A DNA stretch of 64,000 bases from Planctomycetota bacterium (GTDB lineage: Bacteria; Planctomycetota; JAJSAM01; JAJVHW01). Where the stretch lies: positions 119,887-183,886 of the forward strand of contig JAIOPE010000037.1 of assembly GCA_021414065.1 (NCBI GenBank), in the 5' to 3' direction. Shown piece after piece: positions 6,936 to 58,022 of this stretch. The translations under genes and the position numbers were made by a program. Position 1 is the stretch's first letter, and each line of letters opens with the position of its first letter. The notes under the pieces were generated by a model that saw only the letters and a list, made by a program, of their open reading frames with translations, was not told the DNA's origin and searched no databases.

Positions 6936-7188
6936 CCAGCCCGGACAACTCACGAAGGTTCGCGACTGACTGAGCCCCGTCGCTGCCAACGGACCGTCCG
7001 CTGCGTTGGGACCCTTGCGTGGCTTGACAACAAAGCTGTCGCTGCGGGGTCCCGACCTGCGGACGACTCCGCGGACATCATCCAGGACGGTGTGTCGCGA
7101 CGCGAACGTGCCCGGAATCGACCTGAAGTGATCGAACTTCCTACGGTGCGTGCCGTTCTCAGTCGACCCTCGTGAATCGTCCGGCCGA
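6936..7188. mobile_element. Diverged copy of MITE-like element (relative of 51295..51590)
   Basis: Left end AGCCCGGACAACTCACGAAGGTTCGCG (6938..6964) resembles AGCCCGGATCATTCACGAAGCTCCGCG of the 51-kb copy; 33-bp identical core CCGCTGCGTTGGGACCCTTGCGTGGCTTGACAA (6998..7030); shared TCCAGGACGGTGTGTCG; right end CCTCGTGAATCGTCCGGCC. Confidence 0.65.
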
Positions 7189-50584: not shown

Positions 50585-51004
50585 GTGCGCAGCGGCGTGC
50601 GACTGGCGATCCTCGTCGCGGCGGGCTCCCTCCTCGTCGCGGGGGCCGTCTTCGTCGCCGCGATGTCGGGCCCGCCGGAGCGCGTGTGGGCGTTCGTGCC
50701 GTCGCCGCCGTGGAGCGAGGACCCGCCGCCGCACGCGGCCGAGACGGAAGGCGGTGCTCCTTTGCCGAGCGCGTCGTGGACGGCGGTCATCGCCACGAGC
50801 GGCGGCGGCGCGTCCCCCGTGTTCGTGGTGCGCGAACCGTCGCGGTTCTTCCGACGGCTCATGGCTGCGTTCGGGCGCACCGCGAACGGAGACCGCTACT
50901 CCGCGATCGACGCCGGTCACCCTGTCGCCGGCGGCCGCTGGCACGAGTGCGTTCTCGTGGACGCTGACGCGCCGGATCGAGCGGCGACGGTCGGCGTCCG
51001 GTGA
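50585..51004 (+). CDS. Hypothetical membrane-anchored protein
   Basis: GTG start; N-terminal TM LAILVAAGSLLVAGAVFVAAM; GTGA overlap with next ORF. Confidence 0.5.
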   Translation: MRSGVRLAILVAAGSLLVAGAVFVAAMSGPPERVWAFVPSPPWSEDPPPHAAETEGGAPLPSASWTAVIATSGGGASPVFVVREPSRFFRRLMAAFGRTANGDRYSAIDAGHPVAGGRWHECVLVDADAPDRAATVGVR

Positions 51005-51297
51005 CCGAACCGATCGAGTCGCCGGGCGTCGTGCCGATCGGTATCCCGCTCATCATGGGTCCGGCCGCGCTCACGACGATCCTGATCACCGTCGAGTCGC
51101 ACGGTCACCTGCTCGCGATCGTCTCGGTCCTGTTGAACCTCGTCGTCATGTGGATGGTCTTCCGCCACGCCGACCTGATCCTGCGTGTGATGGGCCGCGC
51201 CGGTTCACGCGCGGTGGCGAAGGTCGCCGCGCTCTTCATGGCCGCGATCGCGGTGATGATGATCCGCGTGGGGCTCACGGGAATGCTGGCCAGGTAG
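51001..51297 (+). CDS. Half-length MarC-like membrane protein (C-terminal half only)
   Basis: PGVVPIGIPLIMGPAALTTILITVESHGHLLAIVSVLLNLVVMWMVFRHADLILRVMGRAGSRAVAKVAALFMAAIAVMMIRVGLTGML resembles the second half of MarC; ends in TAG that is also the TIR of the MITE-like element. Confidence 0.55.
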   Translation: MTEPIESPGVVPIGIPLIMGPAALTTILITVESHGHLLAIVSVLLNLVVMWMVFRHADLILRVMGRAGSRAVAKVAALFMAAIAVMMIRVGLTGMLAR

Positions 51298-51590
51298 CCC
51301 GGATCATTCACGAAGCTCCGCGCCTGGACGAGCCCGTCTCATCGACGACTGGCCGACCGCTGCGTTGGGACCCTTGCGTGGCTTGACAAAGCCGACGCTG
51401 CGGCGCGTCGGCGAGACCGGCCCCCGGACGGTCTCGTACGGCCCCGACGCGAATGCCTTGCGGTCAGCTCCGCAGATCTCGTCCAGGACGGTGTGTCGTC
51501 GTGCGAACGAGCTTCGGATCGACGTGCATCGCAAGCCGTTCCGACGTTGCACGCCGTTCTCCCGCGGAGCTTCGTGGATGATCCGGGCTA
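51295..51590. mobile_element. MITE-like non-autonomous element with 28-bp terminal inverted repeats and TA ends
   Basis: TAGCCCGGATCATTCACGAAGCTCCGCG (51295..51322) versus reverse complement of 51563..51590 TAGCCCGGATCATCCACGAAGCTCCGCG: 27/28 identical. Shares a 33-bp exact core (51357..51389) with the 7-kb copy. Confidence 0.8.
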
Positions 51591-54942: not shown

Positions 54943-56097
54943 TTACCGAGCTCCCACGGCGGTGCGCGTCCGACGCGCGATCGCTTCGGCGTAGGCGCCC
55001 TCGAGCGCCCGGGCCGTGTCGCCCCACGTGCGGGAGAGTCCGCGGCGGGACACGGCGGTCGCATCGAATGGAGCCGCGAGCGCGGCTTCGATCCTCGCCG
55101 TCAACGCCGCTGCGTCGCACGGTGGGACGAGGAACCCGGTGGCTCCGTCGTCAACGATCTCACTCGTACCGCCAACGTCCGTCGCCACGGCCGCGAGGCC
55201 GCAGGCCTGCGCCTCGAGGACTGCGTTCGGACGCCCTTCGGAGTGCGACGGATGGACGAAGAGGTCGGCCGCACGCATGAAGTCGGCGACGCGATCGTGC
55301 GGCTGTATCCCCGGCCAAATCACGCGATCGGCGACGCCGTGGCGCGCCGCAGCAGCGCGCAGCGCGACGTCCTCAGGTCCCGCTCCGACGAGCACCAGCC
55401 GCAGGTCCGCGTGTGCCTTCGCGAGACACGCGAACGCGTCGATCGCCTCCGCGTATCCCTTCGCTGGCAGGAAGTGCCCCACCCCGAGGAGCAAGCGCCC
55501 ATCGGCCGGCAGGCCGAGCGCAGCGCGGGCCGCCGCAGCGTCGCCGGGGTGGAATACCTTCGTGTCGATCCCGTTCTCGACGACGTGGATGCGGTCGGCG
55601 GTCACACCGAGCGAGTGCGCGAGTGCCCCGAGCGTCCGTGACACCGGGAGCACGACGTCGGCCGCCAGGAGCGCCGCGCTCATGCGCGCCCGACGCACCG
55701 GAGACTTCGCGAGGATCTGCTCGGTGCCGCGCAGCACGATCGCCGACGCGCATCCGAGTTCTCGCGCGACGACCACCGCGGCCTCGCCGTCGGGGTACCC
55801 GAATTGCGCCTCGACGATGTCCGGCCGCGCCGACGCCACTTCATCGCGGACACAGCGCGCGAGCAAGCGCCCGTCGAACCGTTTGCCGATCCCGGGAACG
55901 TACAGGAACCTCGCGCGCCGCACCTTCACCGGCTCGTCGGCATCCTCGGGGAGGCCCTGCATCCACGGCACTGCGTGGACAACCGTGACGTCGAGCCGCT
56001 TCGCCAGTGCGTGCGCGCGCTCGACGACGAACGGCGCCTTCCAATCGCCCTCGCGGAGCGGCCAGTGATGCGAGAGCAGGCAGACCCGAAGACTCAC
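54943..56097 (-). CDS. Glycosyltransferase family 4
   Basis: LGVGHFLPAKGYAEAIDAFACL...LVLVGAGPEDVALRA...LFVHPSHSEGRPNAVLEAQACGLAAVATDVGGTSEIVDDGATGFLVPP; GTG 56097 overlaps asnB stop. Confidence 0.9.
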   Translation of the reverse strand: MSLRVCLLSHHWPLREGDWKAPFVVERAHALAKRLDVTVVHAVPWMQGLPEDADEPVKVRRARFLYVPGIGKRFDGRLLARCVRDEVASARPDIVEAQFGYPDGEAAVVVARELGCASAIVLRGTEQILAKSPVRRARMSAALLAADVVLPVSRTLGALAHSLGVTADRIHVVENGIDTKVFHPGDAAAARAALGLPADGRLLLGVGHFLPAKGYAEAIDAFACLAKAHADLRLVLVGAGPEDVALRAAAARHGVADRVIWPGIQPHDRVADFMRAADLFVHPSHSEGRPNAVLEAQACGLAAVATDVGGTSEIVDDGATGFLVPPCDAAALTARIEAALAAPFDATAVSRRGLSRTWGDTARALEGAYAEAIARRTRTAVGAR

Positions 56098-58022
56098 CGC
56101 ACCGGCTCCGGAGTCGGACGCGGCGCCGCGTGCTCCACGAGGTGCTGCTGCGCGAAGCCCTCGAACGACATCAGCAGCCAGAGCAGGTCCGACGCGTCGC
56201 GCGTGCCGGCCTGGTGCTCGTCCCAGAGCGAGCGCACGGTGCGCATCTCGAACCAGTCGCTCAGCCGCGCGTCCTTCGAGAAGAGGAGCGACTCTGCGTA
56301 CTCGCGCAGATCGGCACGCAGCCACTCGCGGACCGGGACGGCGAAGCCCTGCTTCTTCCGCCAGAGGATGTCGTGCGGCAGGCGCGGCTCCATCGCCTTC
56401 TTGAAGATCCACTTGCCCTCGCCCCCGTGGAGTTTCAGGTCCGACGGGATCTTCGCCGCGAGTTCGAGCAGCACGTGATCGAGGAGCGGCACGCGCACCT
56501 CGAGCGAGCACGCCATCGCGGCGCGGTCGGCCTTGACGAGGATGTCCTCGGGGAGATACGTGCGGTAGTCGCAGGACTGCGCGCGGGAGACGGCGTCGGT
56601 GGTGCCCGCCGTGCGAAACGCCTCGGAGATCAGGTCGGCCGGGTCGTGGCCGCCCGCGTCATCGATCGTCTCCTGTCGCAGCAGCGACGCGCGGTCGAAG
56701 CCTGCCATCGAACCGACGGATCGGTACCACGAGCGCGACGGATCGCGCTCCGCCAGGTTGAGGAGCGTCGTCTTCGCGCGGAGCGGGCGCGGCAACCAGT
56801 CGGCCTTCGGATAGATGCGGCCGAGGGCGCCGCACAGCACAGCGCGCAGGCCGGCCGGAAGCATGCGGCGCACGCGATCTTCGGCCGCCTCGAACTTGTA
56901 GCGGCGGTAGCCGGCGAACGTCTCGTCGCCGCCGTCGCCCGAGAGCGCCACGGTGACGTGCTCACGCGCCATTTTCGAAACGTAGTACGTCGGCACCGAC
57001 GACGAGTCGCCGAACGGCTCGTCGTAGTGCCATGCGAGCTTCCTCACGACGTCGAGAGCCTGCGGTTCGACGAGGAACTCGCGGAGGTCCACGCCGACGT
57101 GCTTCGCCACTGTGCGGGCGTACTGCCGCTCGTCGTACGCGCCCTCGCTGAACCCGATCGAGCACGCAACCACGGGATGCGCCGACGCCTCGGCCATGTA
57201 CGAGATCACGGTGGACGAGTCCACGCCGCCCGAGAGGAACCCGCCGACGGGAACGTCCGCCACCATCTGGATCTTCACGGCCTCAGCGATCGCGTCGCGG
57301 AGTCGCTCGCACCAGGTCTCGACCGACACGTCCGGTTCCGGCTCGAACTTCAGGTCCCAGTAGCGGCGTTCCGTCGCGCGCCCGTCGGACTCGACCACGA
57401 GCGTGTGCGCCGGCGGCAGCTTCCGCATCCCCGGGTAAATCGTCCGCGGCGACGGCACGTAGCGGAACGCCAGATAGTCGAGGAGCGCGGAGGAATCCAC
57501 GCGGCGTGGCGTCGAGCCCTCGGCGAGGACGGCCTTCGCCTCGGAACCGAAGACGAGGCGCCGGTGATCGAGCGCGTAGTAGAGCGGCTTCACGCCGAGG
57601 CGGTCGCGTGCGAGCAGCATCCGGCGGCGCTTGTGGTCCGCGATCGCGAACGCGAACTCGCCGCGCAGGTGTTCCGCGACGCGGTCGCCTTCCTCCTCGT
57701 AGAGGTGAACGATCACCTCGGTGTCGGACCGCGTGCGGAAGACGTGGCCCTTCGCGAGAAGGCGTTCGCGGAGGGACTCGAAGTTGTAGATCTCGCCGTT
57801 GAACGTGACCTCGATCGAGCCGTCTTCGTTGCCCATCGGCTGACGGCCGCCCGACAGGTCGATGATCGCAAGACGCCGGTGCGCGAGGCCGATCGGTCCG
57901 CGCACGGAGTAGCCGTCGCCGTCGGGACCGCGGTGGAACAGCGTGTCGGCCATGCGGCGGAGCGTGGGCTCGTCGGGCGGCGGCCCCTCGCCGAAGCGGA
58001 ACAGCCCCGCGATGCCGCACAT
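56094..58022 (-). CDS. asnB: Glutamine-hydrolysing asparagine synthase / exosortase-associated amidotransferase type
   Basis: MCGIAGLFRFG...FNGEIYNFESLRERL...LSGGVDSSTVISYMAEA...LPEDILVKADRAAMACSLEVRVPLLDH. Confidence 0.9.
   Translation of the reverse strand: MCGIAGLFRFGEGPPPDEPTLRRMADTLFHRGPDGDGYSVRGPIGLAHRRLAIIDLSGGRQPMGNEDGSIEVTFNGEIYNFESLRERLLAKGHVFRTRSDTEVIVHLYEEEGDRVAEHLRGEFAFAIADHKRRRMLLARDRLGVKPLYYALDHRRLVFGSEAKAVLAEGSTPRRVDSSALLDYLAFRYVPSPRTIYPGMRKLPPAHTLVVESDGRATERRYWDLKFEPEPDVSVETWCERLRDAIAEAVKIQMVADVPVGGFLSGGVDSSTVISYMAEASAHPVVACSIGFSEGAYDERQYARTVAKHVGVDLREFLVEPQALDVVRKLAWHYDEPFGDSSSVPTYYVSKMAREHVTVALSGDGGDETFAGYRRYKFEAAEDRVRRMLPAGLRAVLCGALGRIYPKADWLPRPLRAKTTLLNLAERDPSRSWYRSVGSMAGFDRASLLRQETIDDAGGHDPADLISEAFRTAGTTDAVSRAQSCDYRTYLPEDILVKADRAAMACSLEVRVPLLDHVLLELAAKIPSDLKLHGGEGKWIFKKAMEPRLPHDILWRKKQGFAVPVREWLRADLREYAESLLFSKDARLSDWFEMRTVRSLWDEHQAGTRDASDLLWLLMSFEGFAQQHLVEHAAPRPTPEPVR

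Follow-up and report, generated by a model that had tools for sequence, protein, structure and literature searches.

The window, that is the whole stretch of 64,000 nucleotides analysed here, carries at 51295-51590 an element of 296 bp which is bounded by long terminal inverted repeats (TIRs). The left end, 51295-51322, reads TAGCCCGGATCATTCACGAAGCTCCGCG and agrees with its inverted counterpart at 51563-51590 in 27 of 28 positions, the outermost dinucleotide of each end being TA. When the inverted-end pattern was searched with up to three mismatches, 51295-51590 was the only place found in the window and 100 shuffles gave 0 matches, which bears out the 28-bp TIRs and TA ends described in an earlier, sequence-only reading of this DNA. 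As that reading had also stated, the open reading frames of the window contain no complete transposase inside the element. Its parts, together with a second copy in the window, are as follows.

51295..51590, minus strand (the presumed folded strand): whole element, 296 bp, TA at both ends, 292-bp (+2x TA) length class
51295..51322, plus strand: left TIR
51563..51590, minus strand: right TIR, 5' end of the folded strand
51455..51459, minus strand: AAGGC (read on this strand), the 5' strand of the invariant internal loop
51361..51366, minus strand: AACGCA (read on this strand), the 3' strand of the invariant internal loop
51357..51389, minus strand: 33-bp exact core, comprising the 3' strand of the loop, one apical-stem strand and the terminal hairpin GGCTT-TGTC-AAGCC
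51402..51453 (boundaries approximate), no strand assigned: subfamily-specific insert of about 52 nt with its own hairpin, in place of one apical-stem strand (GGGACCC), placed by class alignment, fold and low model score
6938..7184, minus strand: second, older window copy with decayed ends, flanked by CA and GA

The left TA and the first G of the element together form the TAG stop codon of a MarC-like ORF (51001-51297). Of the Pfam model, this ORF covers no more than positions 106-203, with the N-terminal half absent or out of frame. Elsewhere in the window, 56094-58022 encodes an amidotransferase that resembles TIGR03108, a family of the XrtA/PEP-CTERM system, at 756 bits (under its cut-off), and a glycosyltransferase adjoins it.

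A 14-mer comparison recovered the exact 33-bp match between 51357-51389 and 6998-7030 that had been noticed before, and the latter proved to be part of the whole diverged copy at 6938-7184. The loop-bearing arm of this older copy still reaches 55.4 bits with R1, a covariance model built from the arm of this family only. The window copy at 51295-51590 keeps both loop strands; the insert interrupts its apical stem, and the copy reaches a model score of just 34.5 bits. The TTGACA-like box of the earlier reading is present (51383-51388); its interpretation as a promoter was rejected, since the box lies in the loop of the other-strand terminal hairpin GGCTT-TGTC-AAGCC and is more likely to be structure.

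Sequence and TIR searches followed by fetching of the loci placed the element at no fewer than about 60 loci in its own genome, a draft of 5.5 Mb in 184 contigs (88% complete) whose contigs are broken by repeats. At least 40 places were scored by similarity and at least 95 TIR sites were counted, the copy number being a lower bound with many further copies at contig ends. Both ends were readable in 36 copies, which fall into core-length classes of 234, 245/246 and 292/293 bp. Half of these copies (18/36) are flanked by TA on both sides and another 15 on one side, with TA accounting for 0.9% of the dinucleotides in the window. TA is also the candidate target-site duplication. When genes were roughly called from the G+C content at the codon positions, 64 of 67 matches fell into intergenic DNA. 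Orientation with respect to the neighbours is unbiased: 18 same-direction neighbour pairs split 11:7, while 11 pairs are convergent and 6 divergent. The non-autonomous, TIR-bounded, TA-targeting dispersed family proposed from the window is thus supported by its copies, and it can descriptively be called a MITE, its many scattered copies having TIRs and no internal transposase gene.

In several places the element directly adjoins a member of a second TA-ended family of about 203 bp (TIR TAGCAGCCTGTCGG), and one TA serves both. This second folding repeat, with the TIR TAGCAGCCTGTCGGAGTAGTCG and the same internal loop, lies for example at L087:2823-3027, L037:3095-3298 and in L076. Tandem pairs of the element itself have TC or GA in common instead of TA (L069:2640-3046, L063:19196-19549, L083:7892-8151). 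A coding function was considered with respect to the long ORFs that cross the element, but the reading frames differ between genera, and it was rejected by inspection of the alignments. No Rfam family matched the element at gathering score, and a relaxed search of related copies returned nothing beyond weak matches of chance level that lay outside the element.

The ends recur in genera of the same taxonomic family, on elements of 233 bp in G001 and of 235-236 bp in G002 and G004 whose interiors have diverged. Folded alone, each consensus adopted the same architecture: the TIRs pair into a long basal stem, and a long 3' arm bears the internal loop common to all of them. When the arm (110 nt) was aligned across four genera, both sides had changed in 20 of its 42 pairs, and the covariation score was 0.351 compared with 0.146 +/- 0.012 for shuffled alignments and at most 0.114 when the pairing was slid. 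In 21 sequences from several families, two-sided change extended to 37 of 42 pairs with a score of 0.649 (0.169 shuffled, at most 0.098 slid), this alignment having been fitted to the covariance model, which favours the score. Covariation of the TIR stem could in part stem from conversion between both ends.

Among pairs that the folds of both strands share, G.T exceeded A.C on the minus strand of the window (36:12, 12:4 and 5:3), which points to this strand as the folded one; the counted cells are not phylogenetically independent, and the comparison fits RNA and single-stranded DNA equally. The internal loop, 5'-AAGG(C/A) facing (A/G)ACGC-3', is the most constant part of the fold: in the 21 sequences the unpaired columns, which read AAGG and, facing it, ACGC, were invariant or nearly so, and a G-C pair inside the loop and the flanking C-G pair were invariant too. 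In G001, the copies L119, L123, L127, L130, L133 and L138 contain a variable number of 12-14-nt GTACGTCGATAC-like units in the 5' part, next to a nearly invariant 3' arm.

Model R1 also matched further families of the phylum, including 164-bp TA-flanked elements, and, with 44.9 bits, recovered the other TA-flanked family in the own genome. Among the matches inspected were inverted-repeat elements of about 155-167 bp with TA at their ends, as well as some matches without clear TA ends. Matches to a second covariance model, R2, at E<=0.001 came from 52 of the 392 genomes searched in the phylum (chance expectation 0.4), the E-values being rough and the sampled members mostly draft genomes. The ends vary among the elements of this wider class (TAGCCCGGATCAT, TAGCAGCCCGTTGA, TAGTGGTGTGATTC, TAAGAGGGCGCGAA). 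As a negative control, the loop pattern without the fold was searched in viral contigs, yielding 13 matches, none of which was a TA/TIR element and nearly all of which were stemless.

The same loop is found in the enterobacterial ERIC repeat. ERIC (also IRU or RU-1), from enterobacteria and Vibrio, resembles the element in being small, non-autonomous, intergenic, flanked by TA on both sides and folded into a long hairpin, with no known transposase (PMC2229807, PMC2759123, PMC10969869). We aligned 11 ERIC copies from E. coli, Salmonella, Klebsiella, Citrobacter, Pantoea, Lelliottia and Rahnella, and AAGGC formed five invariant columns. The folded consensus shows a basal stem, AA, a G-C pair, GC and the apical stem, with AA, C and GCA on the facing side, and hence the loop of the window's family in both topology and sequence (AAGGC/AACGCA). 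ERIC differs in length (127 bp versus 155-296 bp here), in its higher A+T content and in its TIR, which comprises 7 contiguous bp (PMC2229807) compared with 28 here. No match to the 127-bp ERIC consensus, with its conserved central sequence, was seen outside the loop. Against models R1 and R2, ERIC reached at best 24.1 bits in another register, and 15.6 bits (E 0.028) in the expected one; because these scores are weak or out of register, the link to ERIC relies on the sequence and topology of the loop. The chance of the match per position is about 6e-7 for the exact 11 nt and about 5e-6 for the degenerate motif, and we estimate it at 1e-4 to 1e-2 when registers, strands and a few repeat families are allowed for. 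We regard the link as likely, though short of proof, and convergence on one binding motif could be the alternative.

We propose an ERIC-like fold class defined by TA ends, a long basal stem, the asymmetric loop AAGG(C/A)/(A/G)ACGC and an apical stem, features that were all found in the family. The window copy belongs to this class, with its loop strands present and its apical stem interrupted. The latter applies to its whole subfamily, the 292 class, in which the loop-closing stem is broken by the inserted hairpin at about 11 loci; since this subfamily was nevertheless amplified, it argues against a strict need of the intact loop for spread.

With respect to the parental IS that the sequence-only reading expected elsewhere in the genome, the outcome was negative. 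A search of the own genome with the TIR pattern (three mismatches) gave no pair of ends at IS length, all paired ends being at most 293 bp apart and the unpaired ones representing truncated copies or contig breaks, and DDE_3 (PF13358), the domain of IS630 transposases, was absent from the 88% complete assembly. In the complete genome of a relative (G386), we found five near-identical copies of a sister element of 165 bp with the TIR TAGTGGTGTGATTCGC. Its 43 sister-element ends include seven that are apparently single, each with a candidate mate at 136-198 bp (two of them weak); no end has a partner at IS distance, and no element of IS length with these ends was found despite the fresh copies. 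The Y1 transposase (PF01797) was absent from the own genome and from four further carriers (G001, G052, G107 and G151). The REP/REPIN elements mobilized by RAYT, a Y1 transposase, are likewise folding, dispersed and non-autonomous, but the element lacks such a transposase in its genome and differs from them in its TA flanks and in forming a single long hairpin, where they have short palindromes tagged with GTAG. Taken together, neither the DDE_3 and Y1_Tnp profiles nor the search for IS-length end pairs identified a mobilizing enzyme.

The short TIR gave only matches of chance length in plasmids and none in viral contigs, and these TIRs were not found printed in a relevant context in the literature searched. 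Among GTDB species genomes, the exact 25-mer of the TIR occurred at two sites in proteobacterial MAGs, both single-ended and without a partner end (L101:1298-1322 and L102:4379-4403, in MAGs labelled Deltaproteobacteria and Proteobacteria); they might be left over from a transfer or from a related element.

The main rival explanation is a TA-targeting transposase that cuts double-stranded DNA. The element would then be a classical MITE, an internally deleted IS whose TIRs are bound as duplex DNA by a DDE transposase of the IS630/Tc1-mariner group, with the fold being secondary. The TA flanks (TA on both sides is expected from an IS630/mariner-type enzyme as well), the long TIRs, the high copy number and the discrete length classes all agree with this explanation, and RUP of Streptococcus pneumoniae, a MITE related to IS630-Spn1, provides the precedent with a TA target, TIRs and about a hundred intergenic copies (PMC2229807). 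Moreover, an own genome that is 88% complete and broken at repeats might hide the parent. RUP, compared here by its description, has the ends of an IS630, whereas no IS630-type DDE_3 gene and no autonomous element with common ends were found here, the own assembly being incomplete; neither the own genome nor G386 holds an IS-length pair of ends. Furthermore, a deletion product leaves unexplained why 37 of 42 arm pairs covary around an invariant loop across unrelated TIRs. We regard the classical MITE as rather unlikely, and the earlier view of an ordinary MITE with its parent IS elsewhere as half right only. That a repeat is bounded by TIRs need not mean that it is a deleted IS; in the present case the internal fold is conserved while the TIRs change.

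A structured RNA domesticated by the host, acting in mRNA processing, stability or termination at the 3' ends of genes, would account for the conserved strand-specific fold and for the intergenic position, often at a stop codon. RNases indeed process ERIC and Correia RNAs (PMC2229807, PMC10969869), and the Correia/NEMIS element of Neisseria is similar to ours in its TA ends, 24-bp TIRs, length variants of about 107/155 bp due to internal inserts, and folded transcripts (PMC2229807), a likeness drawn from its description. The unbiased orientation (11:7, 11 convergent, 6 divergent) speaks against a host function, and near-identical bursts, tandem copies, TA targeting and the neighbouring second TA element indicate mobility, so that a host RNA appears improbable. 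The sequence-only reading had set a structured element and mobility as alternatives and had missed the fold that is conserved on one strand across genera and families; both the fold and mobility appear to hold. That the pairing arose by mutation instead of selection, through template switching which corrects the arms of imperfect palindromes to each other, is most improbable: paired changes at both TIRs do occur within the own genome, but such correction should remove mismatched loops, and the asymmetric loop is invariant over 21 diverged sequences, and every set shows more G.T than A.C on one and the same strand.

On balance, we consider the element to be, with somewhat better than even confidence, a non-autonomous mobile repeat of the ERIC-like class which is moved in trans by an enzyme recognizing the folded strand. 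It inserts at TA, mostly between genes; in a genome of 69% G+C many TA sites belong to stop codons, and the first base of the element, G or A, restores TAG or TAA. One strand folds, the TIRs forming the basal stem and the arm presenting the invariant internal loop, and the enzyme copying or moving the element would most likely read this single strand, either ssDNA or RNA, via stem and loop. Active copies would be selected to keep the fold, whereas individual insertions would drift. The fold is retained in many insertions without orientation bias, for which a need of active copies for the fold in order to spread is the easiest explanation; from this we infer that the fold serves mobility and that the enzyme recognizes it.

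More tentatively, and with less confidence than for the element itself, the window element, the TA elements of the phylum and ERIC might constitute one ancient, gene-less superfamily with a single-strand fold and an invariant loop, served by a common enzyme that reads the folded strand and not the double-stranded TIRs. ERIC repeats are widely used in strain typing, yet their movement is unexplained. The phylum-wide set, to which the near-identical copies in a complete genome add, provides comparative material for finding the enzyme by co-occurrence, and the invariant loop offers a direct mutational test.

The element is itself a target of other mobile DNA in its own genome. An IS1595-type IS (23-bp ends GAGGCCTCTCCACGTCGCTCAGG, zinc ribbon PF12760) has repeatedly entered the last 8 bp of the TIR, apparently duplicating ATCCGGGY, at L024, L027, L044, L084 and at L092, L093, L096 and L099. 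Furthermore, group II intron sequence splits the TIR at one position, TAGCCCGGATCATTCA^CGAAGC, in three copies (L036:3282-3377, L045 and L081), and L036 contains a match to Rfam RF00029; the intron apparently uses the element for homing.
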